From Falsiroseomonas ponticola (GTDB lineage: Bacteria > Pseudomonadota > Alphaproteobacteria > Acetobacterales > Acetobacteraceae), in assembly GCF_016805305.1 (NCBI RefSeq), contig NZ_JAERQN010000001.1, positions 372,001 through 436,000 of the forward strand: 64,000 nucleotides of DNA, given 5' to 3'. Positions within the stretch are counted from its first letter, which is position 1, and every line of letters begins with the position of its first letter. The notes under the pieces are model-generated. The model saw only the letters and a program-made list of their open reading frames with translations. It was not told the DNA's origin and did no database searches. Both the position numbers and the translations under genes were made by a program. Positions 10,177-49,153 of the stretch are shown here, one piece after another.

Positions 10177-11159
10177 TGTCCCAGACCATCGATCCCGCCC
10201 CGGCCCCGGCGGCGGCCCCCTTGGCGGCCCCCTTGGCCCGCAGCTGGTGGTTCACCCAGCCCATGATGCGCGGGGACGACGTGTTCCGCGCGCAACGCCT
10301 GCTGAATGACCGGGCCGGCGCCGCCCTGAAGCCGGACGGGCTGTTCGGCGCCGCGACGCGGGATGCGCTGAAGGCCTTCCAGCGCCGCCGCGGCCTGGTG
10401 GAGGACGGCGTGCTCGGCCCCGCCACCTGGGCCGCGCTGAACGGGGAGGTCCGCGTCGCCTCCGCCCTGGCGACGGGGGTGCAGGCGGTGCTGGATGCGG
10501 CGACGCTGGCCGCGCTGCGCACCCCGCATACCCGCTTCCCCGGCGGCGTCCCCTGGCGCCTGGTGCCGGGGGGGATCGAGGTGGAGGGCGCGCTGGCCGC
10601 CCCCTCCGCCGCCGAGGCCGCGCTGGCGGCGCGGGTGCTGCACGACTACGGCGATGCCATCGCCACCGCCTCCCTGCGCTTCCCCGTGCCGGCGGAGCTG
10701 GTGGTGGCGACCATCTGCACGGAATCCGGCGGCCTGCCCGCCGCGCGGCGGCTGGAGCCGGGCTGCGACCCGGTCGATCCCTCGCTGACGCCGCGCCGCG
10801 TCTCCGTCGGGCTGACGCAGACCCTGCTCTCCACGGCGCGGGAGGTGCTGGGCGATGAGGGGGTGACGCTGGCGGCGCTGGAGAACCCCTCCGTCTCCAT
10901 CCGCGCCGGCATGGCGATGATGTGGCGACAGGCGGCGCAGACGCGCTTCGACCCGCCCCTGGTGGCGGCCGCCTACAATGCGGGCTCGCTGCGCTTCGAA
11001 GGCTCGGCCGGCAATCGCTGGAAGCTCTGCCAGTACCCCATCGGCACGGGCAAGCATGTGGACCGCTTCTGCCGCTTCTTCGCCGGTGCCTGCGCGGCCA
11101 TGGCCGCGCAGCCCGGGGCGCTGCCGCCGCCCGGGGTCAGCTTCGCCGGCCTGCCCTGA
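10176..11159 (+). CDS. peptidoglycan-binding domain plus SLT-type lytic transglycosylase
   Basis: 327 codons from ATG 10176 with GAGG eight bases before it; the start overlaps the lipoprotein stop (TGATG). A PG_binding_1 domain lies at residues ~30-88 (D-G-L-F-G-A-A-T-R-D-A-L-K-A-F-Q-R, then D-G-V-L-G-P-A-T-W). A lysozyme-like/SLT domain spans ~160-300: the likely catalytic Glu is in the I-C-T-E-S-G-G block, followed by V-S-V-G-L-T-Q in place of the usual G-L-M-Q, and A-A-A-Y-N-A-G-S. No signal peptide is evident, which is odd for a murein-cleaving enzyme and suggests export by another route or delivery with the two partners upstream. Confidence 0.85.
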   Translation: MSQTIDPAPAPAAAPLAAPLARSWWFTQPMMRGDDVFRAQRLLNDRAGAALKPDGLFGAATRDALKAFQRRRGLVEDGVLGPATWAALNGEVRVASALATGVQAVLDAATLAALRTPHTRFPGGVPWRLVPGGIEVEGALAAPSAAEAALAARVLHDYGDAIATASLRFPVPAELVVATICTESGGLPAARRLEPGCDPVDPSLTPRRVSVGLTQTLLSTAREVLGDEGVTLAALENPSVSIRAGMAMMWRQAAQTRFDPPLVAAAYNAGSLRFEGSAGNRWKLCQYPIGTGKHVDRFCRFFAGACAAMAAQPGALPPPGVSFAGLP

Positions 11160-12050
11160 TCAGGGCGCGGCGAAGTGGCGGAGCCGGCCGGCGATGATGC
11201 CGCCCACCGCCTCCACCGCCGCGCGGCGCGGGTAGCTGGCGCGGTGGACGATGCGGATGGTCCGCCCCGCCGGCGTCGCCAGCGGTCGCAGCACCAGCCC
11301 CGCATCCTGCGCGACGCCGGCCGCCAGGCCCGGGATCAGCGTGGTGCCGTAGCCCGCCGCCACCATGTTCAGCAGGGTGGAGAGGCTGGCCGCGCGCAGC
11401 GTGCCGCCCAGCGCACCGCCCTGGGTGCCGCAGGCCGCCAGCACCTGGTCGCGCAGGCAATGCCCGTCCGACAGCACGAGCATGTCCCCGGCCAGCTCCG
11501 CCTCCGCCACCGCCTCCCGCGCCGCCAGGCGGTGGTCGGGCGGCAGGGCGGCCAGGAAGGGTTCGGCGAACAGGGCCTGCCCGGCCAGGTCCGGCCCCTC
11601 GGCCTCCGTCGCCAGCAGGGCGGCGTCCAGGTCATGGGCGCGAAGCCGGTCGAGCAGCGCCGCGGTCTGGTCCTCCCACGGCTCGATCTCCAGCGCGGGC
11701 AGCGCCTCCCGCAGCGGGCCGAAGACCAGGGGCAGCAGGTAGGGGGCCAGCGTCGGGATGATGCCCAGCCGGAACCGCCCCGCCATCGGGTCCCGCAGGC
11801 TGCGCGCGACGTCGAGGATGGTATCGGCCTCCGCCACCGCGCTGCGGACATGGCCGATCAGCCGCTCGCAGGCCGCGGTCGGGACCACGGATTTGGGCCC
11901 GCGCTCGAAGAGGGTGACGCCCAGCAGCTCCTCCAGCTTGCGCAGCTGGACGGAGAGCGTGGGCTGGCTGATGCCGCAGGCCTCCGCCGCGCGGCCGAAA
12001 TGGCCATGCTCGGCGACGGCGAGGAGGTAGCGGAGGTCACGCAGGTTCAT
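11160..12050 (-). CDS. oxyR: hydrogen-peroxide-sensing LysR regulator OxyR
   Basis: 296 codons. An amino-terminal winged HTH (N-L-R-D-L-R-Y-L-L-A-V-A-E-H-G-H-F-G-R-A-A) is followed by the effector domain. The two redox cysteines match E. coli positions: Cys198 in D-G-H-C-L-R-D-Q and Cys207 in L-A-A-C-G. Oxidation to a disulfide would activate transcription of katG, its divergent neighbour. The shared 171-base intergenic region carries an OxyR-type operator at 12091-12127. Confidence 0.95.
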   Translation of the reverse strand: MNLRDLRYLLAVAEHGHFGRAAEACGISQPTLSVQLRKLEELLGVTLFERGPKSVVPTAACERLIGHVRSAVAEADTILDVARSLRDPMAGRFRLGIIPTLAPYLLPLVFGPLREALPALEIEPWEDQTAALLDRLRAHDLDAALLATEAEGPDLAGQALFAEPFLAALPPDHRLAAREAVAEAELAGDMLVLSDGHCLRDQVLAACGTQGGALGGTLRAASLSTLLNMVAAGYGTTLIPGLAAGVAQDAGLVLRPLATPAGRTIRIVHRASYPRRAAVEAVGGIIAGRLRHFAAP

Positions 12051-36481: not shown

Positions 36482-36520
36482 ATAAGGCGGCCTTATGAAA
36501 GGCGGCGCGGATTGTCTTGG
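36482..36520 (+). promoter_or_regulatory. LysR-type operator A and -35 element, ridA operon
   Basis: CATAAGG-CGG-CCTTATG (36481-36497) is a perfect palindrome containing ATAAG-N5-CTTAT, i.e. T-N11-A. Exactly 18 bases later comes TCTTGG (36515-36520), as at operators B and C. The centre falls near -62 if TCTTGG is the -35. No good -10 is evident; GATGAG lies 16 bases after CTTGGA. The 312-base gap (36390-36702) holds this site and the small ORF at 36617. Confidence 0.6.
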
Positions 36521-36616: not shown

Positions 36617-36706
36617 ATGGCGTTCCGGCTCACATCCCCCCGGCGCCGGCGTGCGGCGGCGGGCATCACCCGCGGCGCCGGCGGCCGCGACACCGGGACG
36701 CGATGA
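36617..36706 (+). CDS. possible small leader ORF before ridA
   Basis: 29 codons, M-A-F-R-L-T-S-P then five basic residues and a Gly/Ala-rich end. It has the best ribosome site in the gap (GAAGGAG, seven bases before ATG 36617), and its TGA overlaps the ridA start (ATGATG). This would couple ridA translation to it. No similarity recognised; it could equally be chance. Confidence 0.3.
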   Translation: MAFRLTSPRRRRAAAGITRGAGGRDTGTR

Positions 36707-37110
36707 TGAGGAAGGTCTTCACCGCCAGCCCCCCCGAGGTACCGGCGGGGGAGAGCTACGAACAGGCCTCGCGCGCCGGCGACTTCATCTTCCTCTCCGG
36801 CCAGGTCGCGAAGGATGAGAACGGGCGCTGGGTCGGCGGCGATGCCGCCAACCAGGCGCGGCAGATCTGGCGCAACATCGACCGCGTGCTGGCGCATATG
36901 GGCGCGACGAAGGACGACATCGCCAAGGTCACGACGATCCTGACCGATGTCGCGGACCGGGAAGCGGTCACGGCCGTGCGCCTCGCCTACCTCGGCGACC
37001 ATCGCCCGCCGCATACGGGCCTCTACGTGCCGGTGCTCGGCCGGCCGCAGATCACCATGGAGGTCGAGGTGATCGCCTATGCGCCGAAGGCCGGCGCCCC
37101 CGCCGCATGA
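36703..37110 (+). CDS. RidA-family (YjgF/UK114) enamine/imine deaminase
   Basis: 135 codons. The fold is shown by G-D-F-I-F-L-S-G-Q-V (residues ~27-36), Q-A-R-Q-I-W-R-N-I near 51, V-T-T-I-L-T-D and the closing M-E-V-E-V-I-A-Y. The active-site Arg of true RidA (R105 in the I-E-I/C-A region) is not clearly present: the corresponding block reads P-H-T-G-L-Y-V-P, so it may belong to an Rid1-7 subgroup. It hydrolyses reactive imines from PLP enzymes, and overlaps a PLP aminotransferase gene by four bases. Confidence 0.85.
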   Translation: MMRKVFTASPPEVPAGESYEQASRAGDFIFLSGQVAKDENGRWVGGDAANQARQIWRNIDRVLAHMGATKDDIAKVTTILTDVADREAVTAVRLAYLGDHRPPHTGLYVPVLGRPQITMEVEVIAYAPKAGAPAA

Positions 37111-38255
37111 TCCCTGTCTATGACCGGCGGAAGCTCTACCTCGACGACAAGGACGCCATCGATGCCGCGGTGGCGCGCGTGCTGGCCAGCGGCCGCTACG
37201 ATTGGGGCGACGAGGTGCCGGCCTTCGAGGCCGAGCTCGCGGCATGGCTCGGCGCTGGTCATTTCGTCGCCACGGGCTCCGGCACCGCCGCGCTGAAGGC
37301 CGCGCTGCGCGCGCTGCGGATCGGGCCAGGCGATGAGGTGATCACCGTCGCCAACACCGACATGGCGAACAGCACCGCGATCCATTCGGTCGGCGCCACG
37401 GTGGTGTGGGTGGACATCGATCCGCTGACGCGCTGCATGGACCCCGGCGCCTGCGCTTCCGCCATCACGCCGCGGACCGCCGCCATCCTGCCCGTCGATC
37501 TCTACGGCCATCCCTGCGACATCCGCGCCTTGCGCCGGCTGGCGGACCGGCACGGGCTGACGCTGATCGAGGATGCCTGCCTGGCGCTGGGCGCGGAGAT
37601 CGAGGGCCAGCTCGTCGGCCGCCTGGCCGACATCACCTGCTTCAGCTTCTCCTCCGGCAAGCATCTCGGCGCCATGGGCAATGCCGGCGGCTGCGCGACG
37701 GAGGATGCCGGCCTCGCGCAACGGCTCCGGCTGGTCTCGGGCGATGGGCAGGACCGCGCGCGGCATCGCCTGCAGCCCCGCCCGCTCGACCTGCGGCATG
37801 AGGAGGAGAGCCACAACGACCGCATGGACGAGATCCAGGCCGCGGTGCTGCGGGCCAGGCTGCCCTCCCTCCACCGCACCCTCGCCCAGCGGCGCGCGCA
37901 GGCCGCACGCTATTCGGACGCCCTCGCGGGCCTCGTGCAGATCCCGGCGGAGCAGCCCGGCATGCGCCACGCCTGGCGCAACTACGTCATCGAGACGGAG
38001 GACCGGGAAGCGCTGGCGCGGCACCTGGCGGCCCAGGGCATCCAGTGCAACGCGCTCTACAACCCGCCCATGCACCTCCAGCCCGTCTATGCGCGGCTCG
38101 GCGTCACGCGCGGCCGGCTGCCGGGGACGGAAGCCTCCGCCGACCGGCTGCTGGGCCTGCCGGTCGGGCCGCATCTGGGGATGGCGGAGATCGAGACGGT
38201 GATCGCGGCCATCCGCCAGTGGAACGGGGCGGGCGGAAGAAAGGCATCCGCCTGA
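37107..38255 (+). CDS. DegT/DnrJ/EryC1/StrS-family aminotransferase
   Basis: 382 codons. PLP lysine Lys185 in S-F-S-S-G-K-H-L-G-A; T-G-S-G-T-A-A-L near 56-63 binds the cofactor phosphate; I-E-D-A-C near 154 holds the cofactor Asp. The carboxy part has the M-D-E-I-Q-A-A and R-N-Y-V-I-E motifs. Such enzymes act mostly on nucleotide-linked keto sugars, yet no sugar-pathway gene is near; overlap with ridA and a LysR-type operator upstream suggest a catabolic amine instead. Confidence 0.87.
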   Translation: MIPVYDRRKLYLDDKDAIDAAVARVLASGRYDWGDEVPAFEAELAAWLGAGHFVATGSGTAALKAALRALRIGPGDEVITVANTDMANSTAIHSVGATVVWVDIDPLTRCMDPGACASAITPRTAAILPVDLYGHPCDIRALRRLADRHGLTLIEDACLALGAEIEGQLVGRLADITCFSFSSGKHLGAMGNAGGCATEDAGLAQRLRLVSGDGQDRARHRLQPRPLDLRHEEESHNDRMDEIQAAVLRARLPSLHRTLAQRRAQAARYSDALAGLVQIPAEQPGMRHAWRNYVIETEDREALARHLAAQGIQCNALYNPPMHLQPVYARLGVTRGRLPGTEASADRLLGLPVGPHLGMAEIETVIAAIRQWNGAGGRKASA

Positions 38256-38294: not shown

Positions 38295-39137
38295 TCACGG
38301 CAGCGGCGTGAACTGCAGCTGGGAGAAGGGCGTCACCCGGTCCGTCCGCACCATGCGGAATTCGGTATCGGGGCCGAGCCACCGGTTCCAGATCGCGGTC
38401 AGCTCGCCCTCGTTCTCCATCGCGACCAGCGTCTCGTTCACCCGCGCCAGCAGCGCCGCCTCGTCCCGCTTCATGCCGATGCCGATCGGCTGGAACGCCA
38501 TCGGTTCCTCGATCATGCGCATCGGGATCCCCGCGGTCTGGGAATCGTTCACCAGCTTCGTGATGGTCATGGTGTTGGCCACGATGCCGAAGGCGCGGTT
38601 CTGCTGCACCGCCATGAAGGCGGAACCGGTATCGGCGAAGGTCAGCGGCTCCGACCCGTTCATGCGGATCGCGAGTTCCGAGGTGGAGCCGCGGGTGGAG
38701 GCGAGCCGCCGGCCGGCATAATCCGCCCGCGCGCGGCCCGGATCATTGGCGCGGACGGCCAGCATCTCCTTCGCCAGGTAGTAGGGATCGCTGAACTGGA
38801 TCTGCTCCGCGCGGCTCAGCGTATAGGCGAGGTTCGCGATGGTGAGATCGACGCGGCCCAGCCGCACCTCCGGCACGCGGGCCTCGACCGAGACCGGCGT
38901 GATGCGGGCCTGCACGCCCCAGCGCCGTGCGATGGCGCGACAGAGATCGACGTCATGGCCCACCATCTCCCGCGTCCGCGGGTCCGGCGCGGCGAAGGGC
39001 GGCACATCCGCGAAGGTCGCGCAGCGCAGCTCCCGGCGCTGCATGATGTCCGCCAGCTGGTCGGCCTGGGCCACGGGCGCCGCCGCAAGGCCCAGGGCCA
39101 CCAGGCCCAGGGACAGCAGTGATCTCCGCATCGTCAT
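38295..39137 (-). CDS. polar amino-acid ABC transporter, substrate-binding protein
   Basis: 280 codons from ATG 39137 after GAGGAG. Signal peptide residues 1-25 end V-A-Q-A-D. The SBP_bac_3 fold is shown by L-R-C-A-T-F-A-D-V-P-P-F, G-H-D-V-D-L-C-R-A-I-A-R, E-V-R-L-G-R-V-D-L-T-I-A-N and Y-A-G-R-R-L-A-S-T-R-G-S. The Arg and Asp that clamp the amino-acid backbone appear conserved. Last gene of the SDR-permease-permease-ATPase-SBP run, so made in the periplasm for this importer. Confidence 0.92.
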   Translation of the reverse strand: MTMRRSLLSLGLVALGLAAAPVAQADQLADIMQRRELRCATFADVPPFAAPDPRTREMVGHDVDLCRAIARRWGVQARITPVSVEARVPEVRLGRVDLTIANLAYTLSRAEQIQFSDPYYLAKEMLAVRANDPGRARADYAGRRLASTRGSTSELAIRMNGSEPLTFADTGSAFMAVQQNRAFGIVANTMTITKLVNDSQTAGIPMRMIEEPMAFQPIGIGMKRDEAALLARVNETLVAMENEGELTAIWNRWLGPDTEFRMVRTDRVTPFSQLQFTPLP

Positions 39138-39169
39138 TCTCGATCTCCTCGACCTGTTGCAGTTCTTGT

Positions 39170-39925
39170 TCACCGCCCGCGCAGCTCCGACAGGAAGCGT
39201 TGCGCGCGGGGATGCCGGGCGCGGCCGAAGAAATCCTCCGGCGGCGCGGTCTCGACGATGCGGCCCGCATCCATGAACCAGACGCGGTCCGCCACGTCGC
39301 GCGCGAAGCCCATCTCATGGGTCACGCACATCATGGTCATGCCGTCGCGGGCGAGCGCGCGCATCACGCTCAGCACCTCCGCCACCATCTCGGGATCGAG
39401 CGCGCTGGTCGGCTCGTCGAACAGCATGGCCGGCGGTTCCATCGCGAGCGCGCGGGCGATCGCCACGCGCTGCTGCTGGCCACCCGAAAGCTGCCCGGGG
39501 AAGGCATCGCGCCTGGCGGAAAGGCCCACGCGGTCCAGCAGCGCCAGCGCCTTCTCCCGCGCCTCCGCCCGCGGCGTGCCGTTCACCTTCACGGGCGACA
39601 GCATCACGTTCTCCAGCGCGGAGAGGTGGGGGAAGAGGTTGAAGCTCTGGAACACGAAGCCGATGCGGCTGCGCAGCCGGTTGAGCTGCGCGCTGCTCAT
39701 CGGCGCATGCACGTCCTGGCCATCGAAGGTGATGGAGCCCGACTGGATCTCCTCCAGCCGGTTGGCCGTGCGGATCAGCGTGGATTTGCCGGACCCCGAG
39801 GGGCCGCAGACCACCACCACCTCGCCGCGCGCCACCGCCTCGTTGATATCGATCAGCGCCGCGAGGGGCCCGTAGGATTTGTTGACCGCCTTGAAGCCGA
39901 TCATCGCCGGGCGGGGTTCGCTCAT
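39170..39925 (-). CDS. polar amino-acid ABC transporter, ATPase (GlnQ/GltL type)
   Basis: 251 codons. Walker [10 protein letters not shown] at residues 41-49, Q-loop F-Q-S-F-N-L-F-P-H, signature [15 protein letters not shown] near 147, Walker [13 protein letters not shown] near 166 and the H-loop in V-T-H-E-M-G-F-A. Three bases separate it from the upstream permease. Confidence 0.95.
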
Positions 39926-39928
39926 CGG

Positions 39929-40678
39929 TCAGGCCTCCCCGGGGCGGGGCGAGAGGAAGGTGGGGGCGGCGGGCTGGCTCGTGCGGCTCGCCGCGATCCG
40001 CGCCTCCAGCGACTGCGCGATCCGCGTCAGCGTCCAGCAGACGATGAAGTAGGTGATGGCGAGGATCGCATAGACCTCGAAGGGCTTGATCATCAGCCGG
40101 TTGTTGATCTGCCCCGCCGCGAAGGTCAGTTCCGGCACGTTGATGACGTAGCCCAGCGTCGTCTCCTTGATGGTGGAGACGAACTGGCTGAGGATGCTCG
40201 GGATGGTGTTGAACAGCGCCTGCGGCAGGATCACCCAGCGCATGGCGCCAAGGTGGCTGTGGCCGAGCGACCGTGCCGCCTCCATCTGCCCCTTCGGCAG
40301 GGCCTGGATGCCGCTGCGCACGATCTCGCTGATGAAGGCGGCCTCGTAGATCGTCAGCGTGACCAGCATGGCCAGGAAGCCGGGCACGCTGCGCCCGATC
40401 AGGATCGGCAGCAGGAAATAGACCCAGAGGATGATGAGCAGCAGCGGCACGCCGCGCGCCACGTAGATCAGCACGAAGACCGGCCACCGCAGCAGCCGCC
40501 AGGGCGACAGGCTGGCCAGCGCCATCAGCACCCCCAGCGGAAAGGCCAGCGCGATGCCGAGTGCCGAAAGGATCAGCGTGGCGACGATGCCGCCGACCGG
40601 CCCGTTCGGATACTGCCCGATCAGCAGCAGCAGCCAGTTGTCGCGGACGATGTCGATGATGGTGCCGATCATCGTCAT
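39929..40678 (-). CDS. polar amino-acid ABC transporter, permease 2
   Basis: 249 codons from ATG 40678 overlapping the preceding permease stop (ATGA). Five or so membrane helices; the HisM-type EAA loop reads E-A-A-F-I-S-E-I-V-R-S-G-I-Q near residue 128 and G-Q-M-E-A-A-R-S-L-G-H near 147. It would pair with permease 1 to form the heterodimeric channel. Confidence 0.93.
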   Translation of the reverse strand: MTMIGTIIDIVRDNWLLLLIGQYPNGPVGGIVATLILSALGIALAFPLGVLMALASLSPWRLLRWPVFVLIYVARGVPLLLIILWVYFLLPILIGRSVPGFLAMLVTLTIYEAAFISEIVRSGIQALPKGQMEAARSLGHSHLGAMRWVILPQALFNTIPSILSQFVSTIKETTLGYVINVPELTFAAGQINNRLMIKPFEVYAILAITYFIVCWTLTRIAQSLEARIAASRTSQPAAPTFLSPRPGEA

Positions 40679-41379
40679 GCCACCGGCCTCATGTGCCGGT
40701 TGCGCCGCTCCAGCCAGGCGCCGAAGGCCATCAGCAGCAGCGTGCAGGCCAGGTAGATGACCGTGCCCAGCAGGTAGGATTCGAAGGCGCGGAAGGTGCG
40801 GCTCTCGATCTCCTTGATCACATGCGTCACTTCCGACACGCCGATCGCCATGGCCAGGCTGCTGTTCTTGAACAGCGAGACGGTGTGGTTGACGATGGAA
40901 GGCCCGGCATTGCGCAGCGCCTGCGGCAGCAGCACCCAGCGCATGGCGCCGATGAAGGAATGGCCCAGCGCGCGCGATGCCTCCCACTGCCCCTTCGGCA
41001 CGGCGCGGAGGCCGGAGCGGAGGTCCTCGCTGAAATAGGCGGCCTGGCAGAGGCCGAGCGCGATGATGGCGAAGACCGCTTCGCTGTTGTGGTCGGCCAG
41101 CCAGAACTGGACATCCGGCGGCAGCAGGCTGGCGATGCCGAAATACCAGAACATCAGCTGCACCAGCGTCGGCACGTTGCGGTGATAGGCGATGTAGGCC
41201 GCCACCACGCCTTCCGCGATGCGCGACGGCAGCATGCGGACCGAGAGCAGCAGCGCCGCCAGCCCCATGGCGAGGGTCCAGGACCCGGCGAAGACGACCA
41301 CCGTCATCAGCAAGCCGTGCAGCAGCATCCGGCTGAATTCGGGGTTGGCGAGGATCGCCATGACGTCGAAGCCGGACAT
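40675..41379 (-). CDS. polar amino-acid ABC transporter, permease 1
   Basis: 234 codons. HisQ/GltJ-type membrane protein with N-V-P-T-L-V-Q-L-M-F-W-Y-F-G near residue 68, A-A-Y-F-S-E-D-L-R-S-G near 112 and the conserved G-Q-W-E-A-S-R-A-L-G-H at 127-137. It starts eight bases after the SDR stop. Confidence 0.93.
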   Translation of the reverse strand: MSGFDVMAILANPEFSRMLLHGLLMTVVVFAGSWTLAMGLAALLLSVRMLPSRIAEGVVAAYIAYHRNVPTLVQLMFWYFGIASLLPPDVQFWLADHNSEAVFAIIALGLCQAAYFSEDLRSGLRAVPKGQWEASRALGHSFIGAMRWVLLPQALRNAGPSIVNHTVSLFKNSSLAMAIGVSEVTHVIKEIESRTFRAFESYLLGTVIYLACTLLLMAFGAWLERRNRHMRPVA

Positions 41380-41386
41380 CCGCGCC

Positions 41387-42142
41387 TCAGCCGCCGGGGG
41401 CGGATGGCGGCCTGGCGGTGGAAAGCCCGCCCGGCACCTGCAGCGTCGGCGTGATCTCGATATGCCCGATATTCACCGCGACGGGCGCCGCGATGGCGAA
41501 GGCGATGGCGTCCGCCACGTCCTTCGCCTCCGGCAATTCGAAGCCATCCAGGAAGCGCGCCCGCGTCTCCGGCGTGTCGCCATGGACATGGGCGAAGATG
41601 TCGGTCGCGATGCGGCCCGGGCAGATCTCCGTCACCCGCACGCGCTTGCCGAAGGCGTCGATGCGCAGCTGGCTGGACAGCATGCTGACCGCCGCCTTGG
41701 TGGCGTGGTAGGTGGAATTGCCGCCGAAATTATAAGCCGCCGCGATGGAACTGATGTTGACCACATGGCCGCGATCCCGCGCGACCATGCCCGGCACGAC
41801 GAGGCGGCAGAGGTGCAGCACCGCCCGCAGGTTCACATCCACCAGCAGGTCGATATCCCCGGCCTCGGCCTCCAGGAACTTGCGCGGGCGATCGACGCCG
41901 GCGTTGTTCACCAGGATATCGACCTGCAGGGAAGCCAGCAGCCGCGCGATGGCGTCCCGGTCGCAGACATCGATGGCATGCGCGATGCAGCCGGTTTCCG
42001 CGGCCAGCGCGGCCAGCGCGTCGCCGCTCCGCGCCACCGCATGCACCTCCAGCCCCTCCTGCCGGAAGCGGCGGACGACGGCGGCGCCGATGCCGGAGGA
42101 TGCGCCGGTGACAAGGGCTGTCCGGTAGTCGGGGAATGGCAT
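41387..42142 (-). CDS. short-chain dehydrogenase/reductase
   Basis: 251 codons. Nucleotide loop V-T-G-A-S-S-G-I-G at residues ~11-19, N-N-A-G at ~83, catalytic Ser in I-S-S-I-A-A-A and Y-x-x-x-K as Y-H-A-T-K near 150. The closest pattern is YdfG-like (3-hydroxy acid or serine dehydrogenases), with P-G-R-I-A-T-D after the active site. GGAAGGAG precedes ATG 42142. First gene of the transporter operon behind operator B, so it probably oxidises an intermediate of the imported compound. Confidence 0.9.
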   Translation of the reverse strand: MPFPDYRTALVTGASSGIGAAVVRRFRQEGLEVHAVARSGDALAALAAETGCIAHAIDVCDRDAIARLLASLQVDILVNNAGVDRPRKFLEAEAGDIDLLVDVNLRAVLHLCRLVVPGMVARDRGHVVNISSIAAAYNFGGNSTYHATKAAVSMLSSQLRIDAFGKRVRVTEICPGRIATDIFAHVHGDTPETRARFLDGFELPEAKDVADAIAFAIAAPVAVNIGHIEITPTLQVPGGLSTARPPSAPGG

Positions 42143-42161: not shown

Positions 42162-42992
42162 TCACGCTAGCCGAGGCGCGATCGGGCCGGCCAAGAGGGT
42201 TTCGGTTTGGGGAGATAAGGAACTCTTATCCTCGGCGCGGGAGAGCGGCGCCACCTCTCCCCCTTCCGCCAGGATCGCCCCGCGGATCGCCCGCGCCAGC
42301 TCCACCGCGCCGGCGGTATCGCCATGCACCAGGATGGATCGCGCCCGGGCCGGCAGCCGCGCGCCACTGGCGGTGACCACGCAGCCCTCCCGCAGCAGCC
42401 GCAGGACGCGGTCCAGCACCTGCGCGCGGTCATGGATCACGGCGCCGGGCAGCCGGCGCGGCACCAGCAGCCCGTCATCGCCATAGGCGCGGTCGGCAAG
42501 GAAGCTGATGGCGGCGGGAAGGCCGAGCGTGGCGGCCGCGCCCTCGATCGCGGGGCTGGCGGAGGTGAGGATGGTGAGCCGCGGGTCGAAGGCGGCCACC
42601 GCCTCCAGCAGCGGCAGCGCCAGCTCCCGGTCGGCGGCGGCCATGTTGCCCAGCGCGCCGTGGAAACTCATATGCGTCATGCGCGCGCCGAGCGACCGCG
42701 CGATGCCGTCCAGCGCGCCCAGCTGGTAGATCACCATCGCCGCCAGCTCCGGGATCTCCACCTGCATCGGCCGGCGGCCGAAGCCCTGGCGATCGGGGAA
42801 GCCGACATGCGCGCCGATATCGACGCCGCGCGCCTTCGCCACCGCCACGGTGCGGCGCATGATCGGCGGATCGCCCGCATGGAAGCCGCAGGCCAGGTTG
42901 CCGGAGGTGACGACCTCCAGCAGCGCCGCATCGTCGCCCATGGTCCAGGGGCCGAAGCCCTCGCCGAGATCGGCGTTGATGTCGATCCTCAT
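42162..42992 (-). CDS. pxpA: LamB/YcsF family protein (5-oxoprolinase subunit A)
   Basis: 276 codons from ATG 42992. Family signature D-I-N-A-D-L-G-E-G-F-G at residues 3-13, then N-L-A-C-G-F-H-A-G-D-P near 34, H-V-G-F-P-D-R, M-S-F-H-G-A-L near 100, and E-x-F-A-D-R-x-Y as F-L-A-D-R-A-Y-G near 155. The last ~25 residues exceed the usual length and are encoded by DNA that also holds operator B of the next operon, so the promoter is buried in the 3-prime end. In PxpABC, subunit A works with B and C on 5-oxoproline; in fungi LamB serves 2-pyrrolidinone use. Confidence 0.92.
   Translation of the reverse strand: MRIDINADLGEGFGPWTMGDDAALLEVVTSGNLACGFHAGDPPIMRRTVAVAKARGVDIGAHVGFPDRQGFGRRPMQVEIPELAAMVIYQLGALDGIARSLGARMTHMSFHGALGNMAAADRELALPLLEAVAAFDPRLTILTSASPAIEGAAATLGLPAAISFLADRAYGDDGLLVPRRLPGAVIHDRAQVLDRVLRLLREGCVVTASGARLPARARSILVHGDTAGAVELARAIRGAILAEGGEVAPLSRAEDKSSLSPQTETLLAGPIAPRLA
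42166..42229 (-). promoter_or_regulatory. LysR-type operator B and promoter of the SDR-transporter operon
   Basis: Minus-strand order: GATAAG-N5-CTTATC (operator core 42229-42215, T-N11-A), 18 bases containing AAACCG-AAACCC (42208-42197), TCTTGG (42196-42191), 18-base spacer from CTTGGC, then GCTAGC (42171-42166). The start codon of the SDR gene is at 42142, giving a short leader with GGAAGGAG. It shares 30 of the aligned positions' key blocks with operator C. Confidence 0.7.
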
Positions 42993-43005
42993 GGCGCATT
43001 CCCCG

Positions 43006-43410
43006 TCATGGCGCATCGCCGGGCGGCAGGGGCCGCAGGCGGAACAGCGTGTCCCCGTAGCCCACCAGCGTGCCGGGCGCGCAGGGGCGGGCGGCCACCA
43101 GGCCCGCCTGCGGCGCGCGCACGGGCAGCAGCAGCGCGCCGACCCGCAGGCAGCCGAGATCGTCGCCCGCGGCGACCTCCTCCCCCGTCTCCACCAGGGG
43201 CCGGCCCGAAAGGGGATGGCGGTCGAGGAAGAGGCCCGGCGACGCGGCCCGCACCTCGACCAGCGCGGGCCCGGCCGCCGGGGGCGCGGCCCCGCCGCCC
43301 GCGCGGCGCAGCAGCAGGGACACGGATGGCCCGGTGAGTTCCAGCTGGTCGATATCCGTCGCCTCCAGCCAGCGGCGAAGGGTGGCGACGAAGGCGTCGT
43401 CCGGCGTCAT
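43006..43410 (-). CDS. biotin-carrier-like protein lacking the biotin lysine
   Basis: 134 codons. The lipoyl/biotinyl fold is recognisable by alignment with the carrier protein encoded at 46389: both share G-D-x-L/G-A-V, V-R-A and the closing G-x-x-L-x-R-L. Where the true carrier has E-A-M-K-T, this one reads R-V-G-A-L, so the modified Lys is Ala92. It cannot carry biotin and may be a structural or regulatory subunit. It lies between pxpC (overlap of four bases) and pxpA. Confidence 0.75.
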   Translation of the reverse strand: MTPDDAFVATLRRWLEATDIDQLELTGPSVSLLLRRAGGGAAPPAAGPALVEVRAASPGLFLDRHPLSGRPLVETGEEVAAGDDLGCLRVGALLLPVRAPQAGLVAARPCAPGTLVGYGDTLFRLRPLPPGDAP

Positions 43411-44390
43411 GCGCCGTGCTCCTGCAGGCGCCGCAGCGCCACCAGGCGGCGCGCCTCCGCCAGCCAGCCCCGCGCCTCCTCCAGCGCCGCCACCGCCTCC
43501 GCCCAGCTGGTGCGCAGGAAGCGGATGCGGCCGCCGATCGGCGCCTGGCCGAGCCGCCAGAGATCGGCCTCGATCACCGTCGCGATCTTGGGATAGCCGC
43601 CGGAGGGCTGGGCATCGCGCATCTGCACGATGGGCTGGCCGCCATGCGGCACCTGCACCACGCCCGGGACGATGCCGTGGGACCGCAATTCCATCGGCGC
43701 CAGCGGCTCCAGCGCCGTGCCGGCCAGGCGGAAGCCGTAGCGGTCGCTCTGCGGCGTGACCTTCCAGGGCTGGTTCCAGAAGGCATCCAGCGCGGCGGGC
43801 GTGAAGCGGTCATGCTCCGCCGCCGGCAGCGCGCGCATGGCGGGGATGCCATCCACCTCCAGCGGCAGGGCCTGCGCCGGCGGGATCAGGCCGGCATCGA
43901 TCCCCGCCAGGGCAGTGGCGCCGATGGGCAGCCGGTCCCCCGCCCGCAGCGGCCGCCCCTCATGCCCGCCAAAGGCGCCGCGCAGCTGCGTGGAGCGGGA
44001 GCCGAGCACGGCGGGCACGTCGATCCCGCCGGCCACGCAGAGATAGGCGCGGCTCGCCCGCCAGGGGCCGGGCTCCGGCGCGCCGATCTCCAGCACATCC
44101 CCGGCCGCCGCCGCCAGCGCCCACCAGGGCATCACCGTCCGCCCGTTCAGCGTGAGCGCGGCATGCGCGCCCGTCACGGCGAAGCGCGCCGCGGCATCGA
44201 AGCGCAGGCGCACCGGGAAGACCGGCATCTCGATCGCCGCCGCATCCTCCGCATTGCCCAGCAGGATGTTGCCCGCCGCCAGCGCCATGCCATCCATGGC
44301 GCCGGAGACGCCGACACCCCAGCCGAGCGCGCCGTGGCGGCCCGGATCCTGCACGGTGGCCAGCGCGCCGGGCGCCAGGATCTCGATCAT
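43407..44390 (-). CDS. pxpC: KipA / 5-oxoprolinase subunit C (carboxyltransferase-domain protein)
   Basis: 327 codons. Signature T-V-Q-D-P-G-R-H-G near residue 12, G-A-M-D near 31, A-x-x-L-x-L-N-G, Y-L-C-V-A-G-G-I-D-V-P near 116, and L-R-x-x-x-G-x-x-x-x-R as Q-L-R-G-A-F-G-G-H-E-G-R. This protein is homologous to half of the carboxyltransferase domain of urea carboxylase. Overlaps pxpB by four bases. Confidence 0.92.
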   Translation of the reverse strand: MIEILAPGALATVQDPGRHGALGWGVGVSGAMDGMALAAGNILLGNAEDAAAIEMPVFPVRLRFDAAARFAVTGAHAALTLNGRTVMPWWALAAAAGDVLEIGAPEPGPWRASRAYLCVAGGIDVPAVLGSRSTQLRGAFGGHEGRPLRAGDRLPIGATALAGIDAGLIPPAQALPLEVDGIPAMRALPAAEHDRFTPAALDAFWNQPWKVTPQSDRYGFRLAGTALEPLAPMELRSHGIVPGVVQVPHGGQPIVQMRDAQPSGGYPKIATVIEADLWRLGQAPIGGRIRFLRTSWAEAVAALEEARGWLAEARRLVALRRLQEHGA

Positions 44391-45043
44391 CGCAGCACCC
44401 GCGCGATGCGGAAGCGGATGCTGTCGCCGGGCTGCAGCAGCGTGGGCGGCATGCGGCCCAGATCGAAGAAGACCATGCCGGTGGACCCGATGGTGTTCCA
44501 GCCGCTCGGCCCCGGAGAGGCCGAGACGCCGGTCTGCGCGCCGCCGATGGACACCGCGCCGCCCGGGATGCGCAGCACCGGCGTGCGGCGGCGCGGCGTC
44601 GCGATGCGCGGATCCATGCCGCCGAGGTAGCAGTAGCCGGGATGGCTGCCGACGGCGAAGACGGGGTAGGTGGGCGCGGCGTGGATCTCCGCGATCTGCT
44701 CCGGCGTCAGCGCGGTATGGGCGACGACATCGGCCATGTGCGGCCCGCCCTCGCCGCCATAGACCACGGGCAGTTCCACGCAGCGCCCTTCCAGCGGCAG
44801 CGGTTCGATGGCCTGCCAGGCCTGGCGCAGCCGCGCGGCCAGCGGCGCCCAGTCCCGCGGCGGGCGCGCGAAGGTGACCATGACGTTGTTCATGCCGGGC
44901 ACGGCCTCCCCCACCTCCGGCCAGGCGGCGGCTTCCCGCGCCAGCGCCCAGATGCGGCGCTGCGCCTCCAGCGTCGTCTCGCCCGGCGCCTCGAACAGCA
45001 GCGCGGTGGTGCCGAGGAGGCTGAGCTGCGGATCGTCGCTCAT
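44387..45043 (-). CDS. pxpB: KipI / 5-oxoprolinase subunit B
   Basis: 218 codons from ATG 45043 overlapping the accC stop (ATGA). Family motifs: [10 protein letters not shown] near residue 93, [14 protein letters not shown] near 130, [12 protein letters not shown] near 165, and G-P-S-G-W-N-T-I-G. It pairs with the KipA-type subunit; together they match the carboxyltransferase module of urea carboxylase. Confidence 0.92.
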
Positions 45044-46392
45044 CCCGCCGCCATCAGCCGTTCGAGGTGGTGGATATCGACGCCGCCGGCGATGAAGGCC
45101 GGGTCGGCGACGATGCGCCGGTGCAGATCCAGATTGGTGCTGATGCCGCCGACCCGCATCTCCGCCAGCGCGACGCGCAGCCGCGCCAGCGCCTCCGCCC
45201 GGCTGTCGCCATGCACGACCAGCTTGGCGAGCAGCGAGTCGTAATGCGCCGGCATCCGGTAGCCCGCGGCGACATGGGTATCCACGCGGATGCCCGGCCC
45301 GCCCGGGGCGGACCAGGCGGTGACCAGCCCGGGCGAGGGCGCGAAGCTCACGGGATCCTCCGCATTGATGCGGCATTCGATGGCGTGGCCGCGGCAGGCG
45401 ATGTCGCCCTGCCCGATCGGCAGGCTATCCCCCATCGCGACGCGCAGCTGCAGCTGCACCAGGTCGAGGCCCGCCGTCATCTCCGTCACGGGATGCTCCA
45501 CCTGCAGCCGCGTGTTCATCTCGATGAAGTGGAAGGCGCCATCCTCGACCAGGAATTCGAAGGTGCCGACGCCGCGATAGCCGATGCGGCGGCAGGCCTC
45601 CACGCAGGCCGCGCCGATGCGGGCGACGAGGTCCGGGGCCAGCCCCGGCGCCGGCGCCTCCTCCACCACCTTCTGGTGGCGGCGCTGCAGCGAACAGTCC
45701 CGGCTGCCGAGCCAGAGCGCGCCGCCCTGCGCATCCGCGATCACCTGGATCTCGACATGCCTGGGCCCGCCGAGGAACTTCTCGACATAGACGGTGCCGT
45801 CGCCGAAGGCGCGGCGCGCTTCCTCCCGCGTCACCGCCAGCGCATCGGCAAGGCCGGCCTCGCCGGTGACGACGCGCATGCCGCGCCCGCCCCCGCCGCC
45901 CGCGGCCTTCAGGATGACGGGATAGCCGATCGCCGCGGCCGCCCGCCGCGCTTCCGCCGCATCGCCGGACAGCGCCTCCTCCCCGCCCGGCACGCAGGGC
46001 ACGCCGGCCTCCCGCATCGCGCGCTTGGCGGCGATCTTGTCGCCCATCAGGCGGATGCTGCCGGGGCGCGGGCCGATGAAGACGAGGCCCGCCTCCTCCA
46101 CCCGCGCCGCGAAGCCGGCATTCTCCGACAGGAAGCCGTAGCCCGGATGGATCGCGCCCGCCCCGCTGGCCCGCGCGGCGAACAGGATCGCCGCCTGGTC
46201 GAGGTAGCTGCGCGAAGCGGGCGCCGGGCCGATGCAGACCGCGGCATCGGCCAGCGCGACATGCGGCAGGTCCCTGTCCGCCTCGGAGAAGACGGCGACG
46301 GTCCTCAGCCCCAGCGCCTTGCAGGCGCGCTGCACGCGCAGCGCGATCTCCCCGCGATTGGCGATCAGGACCGTGTCGAACATCCCGCTCAC
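45040..46392 (-). CDS. accC: biotin carboxylase subunit
   Basis: 450 codons from a GTG overlapping the carrier stop (GTGA); an ATG three codons in is an alternative. ATP-grasp biotin carboxylase: I-A-N-R-G-E-I-A at the start, [10 protein letters not shown] near 80, the Gly-rich lid [11 protein letters not shown] near 160, [10 protein letters not shown] near 288. It carboxylates carrier-bound biotin. Placement with KipI/KipA, not with accB-fabric genes or accA/accD, suggests a dedicated enzyme separate from acetyl-CoA carboxylase. Confidence 0.94.
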
Positions 46393-46793
46393 CCGAGGCG
46401 CATGAGCGGCTGGCCGAGCTCGACCTCCTCGCCGGAGGCGACGAGGATGGCGGCGATGGTGCCGCCGCGCTCGGCGCGGACCTGCAGGAAGGTCTTCATC
46501 GCCTCCACCACGCAGATCACCGCGCCGGCGGCGATGGTGGAACCCGGGGCCACGAAATCGGCCTCGCCGGGCGAGGGGCGGAGATAGACGATCCCCGCCA
46601 TGGGCGAACGGATCTCGGCCGGGGCCGCGGCGCGCGGCCGGGTGCGCGGCGCGGCCGGGGCGGGCGCCGCCGCCCCTGGCGAAGCCCCGTCGCGCAGCAG
46701 GCGCAGCGTCCAGCCATCCTTGCCGGCCACCATCTCCGAGAGGTCGGACGCCGCCATGGCATCGATGAAGGTCTTGATCTGGAGGAGGTCCAT
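46389..46793 (-). CDS. biotin carboxyl carrier protein
   Basis: 134 codons from ATG 46793; an in-frame ATG at 46811 would leave almost no leader if the promoter at 46823 is right. An amino-terminal helix, a Pro/Ala linker (residues ~37-60) and a biotinyl domain with V-E-A-M-K-T (Lys100). It should be biotinylated. First gene of the carrier-accC-pxpB-pxpC-(degenerate carrier)-pxpA operon, all overlapping by four bases except the last step. Confidence 0.92.
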
Positions 46794-46822
46794 GCGCCGC
46801 CGGTCAGCCATCGGGGCGGCAG

Positions 46823-46886
46823 GCTATCGTCGCCCCGCCGCGGCTGGCCAAGACGGTTTGGGTTTAGCGCAATAAGACCTGCTTAT
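46823..46886 (-). promoter_or_regulatory. LysR-type operator C and promoter of the carrier-accC-pxp operon
   Basis: Minus-strand order: ATAAG-N5-CTTAT (46886-46872), 18 bases containing AAACCC-AAACCG (46865-46854), TCTTGG (46853-46848), 18-base spacer from CTTGGC, then GATAGC (46828-46823). The operator overlaps the stop codon of the LysR gene. Conserved nearly block for block with operator B. Confidence 0.7.
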
Positions 46887-47812
46887 GGTGCGGGCCAGGC
46901 CTCGCCCATCGCGCCCTGGGCGCGGGCCTCGATCAGCTCCTGCACGATCAGCTTCACGGTCTGCGCGGGCTCCGACAGCGGAAGATGGTCGGACAGGCAG
47001 AGCGCGAGCGGCGCCTCGATCACCGGCTTCACCAGCCGGCGCTGCCAGGCGGCGCAGGAGGCCACGACCTGCCGCGCCATCGATTCCGGCAGGATGGTCG
47101 CGCCCAGCCCCTCCGCGATCACCTGCTTCAGCGTGCTGTCGGATTCGATCTCCGCCACCACGCGGGGCGTCATGCCATGGGCGGCGAAGGCCTCGTCCAC
47201 CATGCGCCGGACCACGTTGTAGGGACGGGCGAGGAAGAGATCGACCTCCGCCAGCTCCGGCACCGGCACGTCGCCGGCCGGGGCGGGCATGCTGTCCGGC
47301 GCGACGACGCAGAGCCTCTCCTTCAGCAGCGGCTCGAAGCTCAGCCCGTGCACCGAAGCCTTGCCGCCATACAGCATGGCGAAATCCATGCGCCCGTTCA
47401 TGACCAGTTCCGACAGCGTGCTGCCATAGGTCTCGTTCAGGTAGAGCACGATGCCGGGATGCCGGGCGCGCACCGTGCGCAGCAGCGGCAGCGCGAAGCC
47501 CGCCGCCGCCGTGCCGGGCGCCAGGCCGACGGAGACCGCGCCGGACAGCCCCTGCACCGCCGCCCGCATGTCCACCCGCGCCTGGTCGCATTGCCGCAGG
47601 ATGATCTGCGCGTGGCGATACAGCACGCGCCCGGCCTCGGTCGGCACCACGCCGCGCTTGGTGCGCGTCAGCAGCGTCTGCCGCGCCTCGCTCTCCAGCG
47701 TCGCGAGCTGCTGGCTGAGCGCGGGCTGGGCGATGTGCAGCACATTGGCGGCGCGGGTCAGGCTGCCGGTATCGACGATCTTCACGAAATACTGCAGCCG
47801 CCGCAGGTTCAC
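46883..47812 (-). CDS. LysR-family transcriptional regulator
   Basis: 309 codons from a GTG at 47812 (N-L-R-R-L-Q-Y-F-V-K-I-V). HTH residues ~16-36 (S-L-T-R-A-A-N-V-L-H-I-A-Q-P-A-L-S-Q-Q), linker helix, then a substrate-binding-like effector domain with G-L-A-P-G-T near residue 93 and L-P-E-S-M near 245. It resembles the Nac/Cbl branch that controls nitrogen or amino-acid use. Its 5-prime end is next to operator D and its stop codon lies in operator C, which fits direct control of both flanking units and itself. Confidence 0.93.
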   Translation of the reverse strand: MNLRRLQYFVKIVDTGSLTRAANVLHIAQPALSQQLATLESEARQTLLTRTKRGVVPTEAGRVLYRHAQIILRQCDQARVDMRAAVQGLSGAVSVGLAPGTAAAGFALPLLRTVRARHPGIVLYLNETYGSTLSELVMNGRMDFAMLYGGKASVHGLSFEPLLKERLCVVAPDSMPAPAGDVPVPELAEVDLFLARPYNVVRRMVDEAFAAHGMTPRVVAEIESDSTLKQVIAEGLGATILPESMARQVVASCAAWQRRLVKPVIEAPLALCLSDHLPLSEPAQTVKLIVQELIEARAQGAMGEAWPAP

Positions 47813-47836
47813 GCCGCCACCCGCATCTCGAACGCC

Positions 47837-47899
47837 ATAAGATTCCGCTATAAGGCCAGCGTGAAGTCCTTTTGGCCAGGGGTTTCCGCCGGGGCTAGC
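47837..47899 (+). promoter_or_regulatory. LysR-type operator D and promoter of the class I aminotransferase
   Basis: ATAAG-N5-GCTAT (47837-47851) keeps T-N11-A but has two mismatches in the second arm. After 18 bases comes TTTTGG (47870-47875), then GCTAGC (47894-47899) at 17 bases from TTTGGC. It lies between the divergent LysR and aminotransferase genes. Confidence 0.6.
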
Positions 47900-47935: not shown

Positions 47936-49153
47936 ATGTCCGCCGCCGAGCCCCGCATCGCCGACCGGGTGCGCCGCATCAAGCCATCGCCGAGTTCCGC
48001 CGCGGCCGACCGCGCGGGCGCGCTGCGGCGCGAAGGCCGCAGCATCGTCAGCCTGGTGGTGGGGGAGCCCGATTTCGACACGCCCGCGCCCATCCGCCGC
48101 GCGGCGGCCGAGGCGATGGAGCGCGGCGCGACGCGCTACACCATGCTCGCCGGCACGCCCGAGCTGCGCCAGGCCATCGCCGCCAAGCTGAAGCGGGAGA
48201 ACGGGCTGGACTACGACCCTCGCGACATCGTCGTCACCAATGGCTGCAAGAGCGCGATCTACAGCGCCTGGGAAGCGACGCTGGAGCCGGGCGACGAGGT
48301 CATCATCCCCGCGCCCTACTGGGTGTCCTACCCCGACATGGCGCTGGCCTGCGGCGGCACGCCCATCTGCCTTCCCTGCCCCGAAGGCCAGGGCTTCAAG
48401 CTGGCGCCGGCGCAGCTGGCCGCGGCGATCACGCCGCGCACGCGCTGGCTCGTCCTCAATTCCCCCGGCAACCCGACCGGCGCGACCTATTCGCCGGCCG
48501 AATGGCGCGCGCTGGCCGATGTGCTGCGCGGCCATCCGCGCGTGCTGGTGATGACGGACGACATCTACGAACACATCCGCTTCGGGGCCGAGGGCCCGGC
48601 GCCGCACCTGCTGGCCGCCGCGCCGGAACTGCGCGACCGCACGCTGGCCATCAACGGCGTCTCCAAGACCTATGCGATGACGGGCTGGCGCATCGGCTGG
48701 GCGGCCGGCCCGCGCGACATCGTGGATGCGCTGGCCACCCTGCTCTCCCAGGCCGCCGGCAATGCCTGCTCCGTCAGCCAGGCGGCGGCGGTGGAGGCGC
48801 TGAACGGCGACCAGTCCTTCGTCGCCGCCAGCGTCGCCACCTATCGCGCGCGGCGGGACCGCATGGCGGCGCGCATCAACGCCATCCCCGGCCTGCGCTG
48901 CACGCCGCCGGAGGGTGCCTTCTACCTCTACGTCGATTGCGCCGGCCTGATCGGGCGGCAGACGCCGGAAGGCCGGGTGCTCACCAGCGACCACGACGTG
49001 GTCATGCACCTGCTGGAGAGCGTCGGCGTCGCGCTGGTGCCCGGCGCCGCCTACGGGCTCTCGCCCTATTTCCGGCTGTCGATCGCGGCGTCGGCCGACA
49101 TCCTCGACGAAGGCGCGGACCGCATCGCCCGCGCCGTCGCCGCGCTGCGCTGA
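47936..49153 (+). CDS. class I/II PLP aminotransferase (aspartate aminotransferase-like)
   Basis: 405 codons from ATG 47936 after GAGGAG. Motifs: E-P-D-F-D-T-P near 44, N-G-C-K-S-A-I-Y, N-S-P-G-N-P-T-G at ~175-182 with the cofactor Asn, D-D-I-Y-E-H near 208, the PLP Lys244 in N-G-V-S-K-T-Y-A-M-T-G-W-R, and F-R-L-S-I-A near the end with the substrate Arg. Subgroup Iγ, active on aspartate, aromatic or similar amino acids. Divergent from the LysR gene and behind operator D. Confidence 0.92.
   Translation: MSAAEPRIADRVRRIKPSPSSAAADRAGALRREGRSIVSLVVGEPDFDTPAPIRRAAAEAMERGATRYTMLAGTPELRQAIAAKLKRENGLDYDPRDIVVTNGCKSAIYSAWEATLEPGDEVIIPAPYWVSYPDMALACGGTPICLPCPEGQGFKLAPAQLAAAITPRTRWLVLNSPGNPTGATYSPAEWRALADVLRGHPRVLVMTDDIYEHIRFGAEGPAPHLLAAAPELRDRTLAINGVSKTYAMTGWRIGWAAGPRDIVDALATLLSQAAGNACSVSQAAAVEALNGDQSFVAASVATYRARRDRMAARINAIPGLRCTPPEGAFYLYVDCAGLIGRQTPEGRVLTSDHDVVMHLLESVGVALVPGAAYGLSPYFRLSIAASADILDEGADRIARAVAALR

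Follow-up and report, generated by a model that had tools for sequence, protein, structure and literature searches.

A conserved two-part LysR-type promoter element beside a NAC-family regulator gene, and a predicted local regulon around a biotin-linked pxpABC cluster in Falsiroseomonas ponticola

The window analysed here, a stretch of 64,000 nucleotides of the Falsiroseomonas ponticola genome, contains on its minus strand a gene for a LysR-type regulator (46883..47812, GTG start, TAA stop) with the Pfam domains HTH_1 (PF00126) and LysR_substrate (PF03466). The protein is a member of the NAC family (NCBIfam NF008410, 449.4 bits, cut-off 309), an assignment absent from the first-pass annotation of this DNA; it is 49% identical to E. 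coli Nac (b1988), with 50 of 65 residues identical in the DNA-binding domain, and databases label its relatives NAC. A class I aminotransferase gene (47936..49153, plus strand; PRK06107, 663 bits, cut-off 617; Aminotran_1_2) is divergent from it.

On the other side of the regulator gene, and on its strand, lie candidate genes for a biotin carboxyl carrier protein (BCCP; 46389..46811; Pfam Biotin_lipoyl), a biotin carboxylase of the accC type (45040..46392; NCBIfam accC, 633 bits, cut-off 626.5), PxpB with carboxyltransferase subdomains C and D (44387..45043; TIGR00370 above cut-off; PF02682), a PxpC-like protein with subdomains A and B (43407..44390; PF02626; PxpC equivalog below cut-off, 280 of 500), a second carrier-like protein (43006..43410; no Pfam or NCBIfam match) and PxpA of the LamB/YcsF family (42162..43016; NF003814, 325 bits, cut-off 226; PF03746). 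They are followed on the same strand by a gene for an SDR dehydrogenase (41387..42142; PF00106) and by the genes of an ABC importer (38295..41379), which comprises two permeases (40675-41379 and 39929-40678; BPD_transp_1 in each), an ATPase (39170-39925; ABC_tran) and a binding protein (38295-39137; SBP_bac_3). Measured against the PxpABC 5-oxoprolinase, the PxpA subfamily and PxpB pass their cut-offs, PxpC stays short of its own, and a biotin carboxylase and carrier are added. The enzymes of the operon are predicted to open a lactam-like ring after import.

The two carriers of the operon differ in their motifs. The second one lacks the biotin-type motif A[MV]K in the window; the motif is present in 35 of 36 relatives of the first carrier and in none of 35 relatives of the second; a carrier fold without its lysine is retained in the operon.

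Four operators, A to D, had been placed in the window by the first-pass annotation, each as ATAAG-N5-CTTAT or a close variant, and all four were found at these positions: A at 36482..36496 (plus strand), B (ATAAGAGTTCCTTAT) at 42215..42229 (minus), C (ATAAGCAGGTCTTAT) at 46872..46886 (minus) and D (ATAAGATTCCGCTAT) at 47837..47851 (plus). Operators A, B and C match ATAAG-N5-CTTAT exactly, giving three occurrences in the window against a mean of 0.00 in shuffled windows, and D retains ATA-N9-TAT with two mismatches to the strict form. The next element indeed begins exactly 18 bases after the palindrome, as TCTTGG in A, B and C and as TTTTGG in D. The GCTAGC or GATAGC reported 17-18 bases further on is present as well, but at 18 bases in D and at 19 in B and C.

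The 18 bases between the palindrome and TCTTGG (below, the middle) are conserved and could be scored. Promoter C (46848..46871, minus strand; middle +12.7 bits) and promoter B (42191..42214, minus; +11.7 bits) have a -10-like TA 21 bases after TCTTGG; promoter D (47852..47875, plus; +5.0 bits), the weakest of the three, has it 20 bases after TTTTGG. Operator B falls within the 3' part of the pxpA gene and is directed at the SDR gene and the importer, and operator C is directed at the genes from BCCP through accC, pxpB, pxpC and the second carrier to pxpA. The regulator's TAA stop sits within the ATAAG of operator C, in agreement with the overlap described before. Operator D, located between the regulator and aminotransferase genes and directed at the latter, does not abut the regulator gene as had been claimed: a gap of 24 bp separates it from the GTG start. 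Site A lies between a gene for an amidohydrolase of the histone deacetylase family (PF00850; 35355-36389, minus strand) and a divergent RidA-DegT gene pair (36703-38255, plus strand).

A scan of the whole 6.73-Mb genome gives five exact matches to ATA-N9-TAT-N18-TYTTGG, against 0.015 expected from the base composition of the window, and none to the backwards version of the pattern. The many unrelated same-spacing matches that had been named as an argument against the regulon were not found: four of the five are the sites already reported, and the fifth, site E (C7:16159), lies beside an unrelated LysR gene. Exact ATAAG-N5-CTTAT is found in four places, namely A, B, C and E. Allowing one mismatch, the bare palindrome shows no enrichment (7 matches per strand versus 10 for the backwards control), and the full pattern has 6 matches versus 2. 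The case for the element rests on its exact form, on its spacing and on the conservation described below. A chance origin of the elements was rejected on the empty reversed controls and the expectation for this genome.

Site E is at the stop codon of a LysR gene whose product is 24% identical to the window's regulator. This second LysR gene (L008, 7211-8174; about 15210-16173 of contig C7 of the same genome) has palindromes at both ends, the last one inside the stop codon, with TCTTGG at N18, and is followed by HyuA and HyuB genes; the products of the latter resemble caprolactamase subunits, but at 442 and 256 bits neither reaches the cut-off of 1000. Orthologues of the C7 regulator in four genomes (G036, G011, G038 and G183) show the same layout with N18; in G305 the spacing is N18 and in G321 it is N19. 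At E 1e-70 the C7 protein has matches in 3 of 385 genomes of the class.

A contig scan with the protein sequence of the window's regulator yielded 37 orthologue loci (62-82% identity) in alpha- and betaproteobacteria, among them Bradyrhizobium, Microvirga, Methylobacterium, Skermanella, bins of Acetobacteraceae and Rhodospirillales, and the betaproteobacterium Aquabacterium. The order recurring over these loci is the regulator, then BCCP-accC-pxpB-pxpC-carrier-pxpA, then SDR and importer, with the aminotransferase divergent; in L052-L054 the SDR-importer block has the opposite orientation, L063 shows a rearranged order, and contig ends truncate several loci. ATA-N9-TAT is present in all 105 regulatory regions (37 of 37 for D, 36 of 36 for C and 32 of 32 for B; 6 of the 111 possible regions, missing or too short, were left out), this count asking for the palindrome only, with no filter on the bases that follow. 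TNTT stands at exactly N18 in 105 of the 106 palindromes of these regions, as TCTTGG (82), TGTTGG (9), TCTTAG (9), TCTTTG (3), TCTTAT (1) or TCTTTC (1). The regulator's stop codon lies within palindrome C in 29 of the 37 loci. In total, 646,082 bases of orthologue loci contain 118 ATA-N9-TAT palindromes, 108 full elements and no match to the reversed pattern.

Whole genomes were scanned for 36 of the 37 loci (L062 shares its genome with L049). The element is present in all 36, 89 times in sum, and the reversed-pattern control is empty in each. By manual sorting, 83 of the 89 fall in the regulator's own cluster, a count that requires the full element and that lone NAC-type sites would escape. 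Outside the cluster, G207:C161 and G230:C50 resemble B sites on other contigs, and extra elements were found in G202 (one), G204 (two) and G211 (one).

Logos and a profile were built from 83 sites passing a YYTTGG filter, which excluded the TGTTGG (9) and TCTTA or TCTTT (14) sites. The consensus from the palindrome to TCTTGG is approximately N5-CA-x-AG-CCAATCCG. In the unfiltered set of 106, A is found at position 22 in 105 sites and at position 24 in 102, and T at positions 34 and 36 in 105 each; both A's are kept in B and C of the window, and C replaces the second one in D. In all 83 sites a TA is located 20 or 21 bases behind TCTTGG, extended to TA-N3-T in 32 of 32 C sites, 23 of 23 B sites and 18 of 28 D sites.

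The first-pass annotation had correctly placed TCTTGG or TTTTGG as the next element, but it appears to be more than a -35 box, because TCTT persists where GG changes (14 of 105 regions), and a plain -35 reading was rejected for this reason. For the middle together with TCTTGG the best reading is a degraded palindrome copy, AxA-N9-TxT, which would be centred 21 bp on, two helical turns from the first; on this view the fixed N18 would be the spacing that separates the two sites bound by a LysR tetramer. This dyad is a reading rather than a proof, since a centre at 30 pairs equally well and one at 32.5 better on average, so that the 21-bp solution is not unique. If TA is taken as -12/-11, the centre of the palindrome would fall at about -64 and that of the second site at about -43, which supports the recognition-site geometry of LysR activators suggested earlier (with a centre near -62).

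Among 200 genomes of the family, 17 have a match to the regulator at E 1e-60, 6 of them at 65% identity or more and 11 at 43-44%; it is absent from all three same-genus genomes sampled. The bare pattern alone is unspecific in AT-rich genomes, as it gives 63 sites in 39 of the 200 genomes, many of them AT-rich, against 37 sites for its reverse. With the profile, 16 sites score 35 bits or more. They are spread over 8 genomes, which include every one of the 6 whose orthologue is at least 65% identical (3 of these 6 were also in the building set of the profile) and 2 of the 194 others. One of these two is G069, where the cluster meets a contig end; the other is G038, in which a NAC-like middle (+11.4) stands at the other LysR type. 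The 11 genomes with only 43-44% relatives have no site at 35 bits. Operator D of the window scores 28.0 bits, less than three matches in genomes without a close orthologue (30.3, 30.1 and 28.8), and its assignment is carried by place, spacing and TA.

At the level of sequence comparison, these data demonstrate that the element exists, that its spacing is fixed and that it is conserved next to orthologous regulators. We consider it highly probable that the adjacent NAC-family regulator, already proposed as the binder, recognises the element shared by B, C and D and activates all three units; the regulator's own gene is probably also controlled from D, by autoregulation. The regulon foreseen by the first-pass annotation thus keeps three of its four units, with B, C and D carrying the element conserved over 37 loci and A having a middle of -33.0 bits and lacking the -10 TA.

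Mechanistically, the regulator would occupy the palindrome near -64 as a tetramer; under the action of an effector, its second pair of DNA-binding domains would come to rest on the site near -43, overlapping the -35 region, and the tetramer would thereby aid RNA polymerase. The units served would be the aminotransferase (D), BCCP-accC-pxpB-pxpC-carrier-pxpA (C) and the SDR with the ABC importer (B). The predicted pathway would import a lactam or similar cyclic amide, open the ring using ATP and biotin-bound CO2, and hand the opened product to the aminotransferase and the dehydrogenase; the effector would probably be the substrate or an opened product. Comparison of the regulator with solved structures, made with regard to the effector, returned only distant LysR and amino-acid-binding relatives. 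The analysis offers a base-resolved regulon for a recurrent biotin-linked pxpABC cluster, whose regulator could report the substrate of the cluster, and the fixed N18 makes these promoters a natural test of LysR spacing setting activation.

Two other explanations concern the regulator and operator C. The conserved stretch at C is palindromic and overlaps a stop codon, as an RNA hairpin or terminator ending the regulator gene would; yet D and B carry the same element and are not such gene ends (D is on the start-codon side of the gene), the stretch folds no better than its shuffles (z 0.61; 139 of 200 shuffled versions fold equally well or better) and a T run behind it is absent, which leaves this origin scarcely credible. 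The regulator could also be a global NAC as in enterics, produced under nitrogen limitation through NtrC and sigma-54, the cluster being merely its local part. In enterics NAC has a sigma-54-type promoter upstream of its gene and a wide regulon in nitrogen metabolism, and the score in the NAC model, the identity to E. coli Nac and the database names of the relatives all fit such a role. This is nevertheless improbable, given that the full elements of the 36 whole genomes are concentrated in the regulator's own cluster and that 2 of 37 loci have a loose -24/-12 pattern upstream of the regulator gene, compared with 15 of 37 for an equal stretch inside the gene; a sigma-54 promoter for the regulator gene was rejected on the latter comparison. 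The protein is a NAC by sequence, yet it looks like a dedicated local regulator, and the automatic name 'nitrogen assimilation regulator NAC' is suggested to overstate the function of this clade.

The other two concern site A. Its exact palindrome (21.8 bits alone), with TCTTGG at N18, is among the five exact full patterns of the genome, which would favour a single regulon of all four operators. Against this, its middle scores -33.0 bits, compared with a minimum of 4.3 among 83 true sites each scored without its own locus, TA is missing at 14-29 bases after TCTTGG, and no ATA-N9-TAT was found in the stretch examined at the DegT homologues in G201 and G206 (54-55% identity; the two closest DegT proteins in regulator-bearing genomes). 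A was accordingly rejected as a member, and a four-operator regulon is unlikely. At E 1e-80 none of 199 other family genomes contains a match to the DegT protein, a further point against membership, and for this reason the RidA-DegT pair may have been acquired. Somewhat less unlikely, though still doubtful, is an assignment of A to the second LysR regulator, that of contig C7, whose gene has such sites at both ends: the palindrome at the start of this gene and that of A agree in all but 1 of 15 bases, and at the end of the gene site E is likewise followed by TCTTGG at N18, with a middle (-13.9) that does not resemble the NAC type. However, a one-base difference between 15-base palindromes is weak evidence, the middles of A and E have little in common, and no functional link from RidA-DegT to the C7 locus was found. 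The preferred reading remains a local regulon of B, C and D under the adjacent NAC-family protein.

Related arrangements were observed in other genomes. In G204 (L150, L151) and G202 (L153), NAC-type elements are located near NAC paralogues, aminotransferases, importer ATPases, HyuAB-like genes and an SDR gene; in G211 (L152) such an element precedes an aminotransferase gene, followed by importer and HyuAB-like genes, and no NAC paralogue was seen in the stretch. In G174 (L118, 9818-16377) a NAC-like gene, whose product (43% identity, 286 bits) is below the NAC cut-off of 309, has two pxpA-like genes and pxpBC as neighbours, and a variant element precedes a pxpA-like gene (10973-11692) on the other strand.

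The proposed cyclic-amide pathway gains support because the promoter type pairs with two unrelated ring-opening enzymes. As a speculation that we rate as rather unlikely, one grammar (palindrome-N18-TCTTGG) could run cyclic-amide pathways under several cross-binding LysR clades, with the NAC type at biotin-linked pxpABC, NAC-type paralogues at HyuAB-like genes and the unrelated C7 type at HyuAB genes of the caprolactamase-like kind, all forming one genome-wide network in which A would be a link.

In our search of open-licence literature by exact words, no paper on a LysR regulator of such pxp genes was found, and the comparative-regulon paper PMC5343134 had no match for NAC or oxoproline words. 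According to a 2026 paper, regulation of 5-oxoproline metabolism in bacteria had, to its authors' knowledge, previously been unstudied; the PxpR that it describes in Corynebacterium glutamicum is a GntR-type repressor that binds 5-oxoproline, with the operon pxpTABC (PMC13274462). PxpR controls pxpABC genes, as the regulator here is predicted to do, but it is a GntR protein on that account, and the regulator here has LysR domains.

The closest system by sequence is NAC of enterics (E. coli nac, b1988), a protein of the same family sharing most residues of the DNA-binding domain. NAC recognises ATA-N9-TAT-type sites near -64. Here, by comparison, the regulon is local, the element has two parts, and no conserved sigma-54-type promoter is present in the 37 loci. 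By geometry other LysR proteins are alike as well. The CynR promoter carries ATAA-n7-TTAT repeats, located at -66, -44 and -34, and at the OccR promoter the repeat of highest affinity is at -64 (PMC5002191); their targets are other ones, and in our loci the proposed second site is a degraded copy and N18 is fixed over all 37. For BhbR1 of Pigmentiphaga kullae, a regulator of bromohydroxybenzoate catabolism, footprinting marks an ATA-N9-TAT recognition site, of a type described as usual near -65, together with an activation site, ACT-N10-TGT, that is weak and covers the -35 box (PMC12016517); the geometry read here is the same. The regulon predicted here is new, and its design is that of a classical LysR system.
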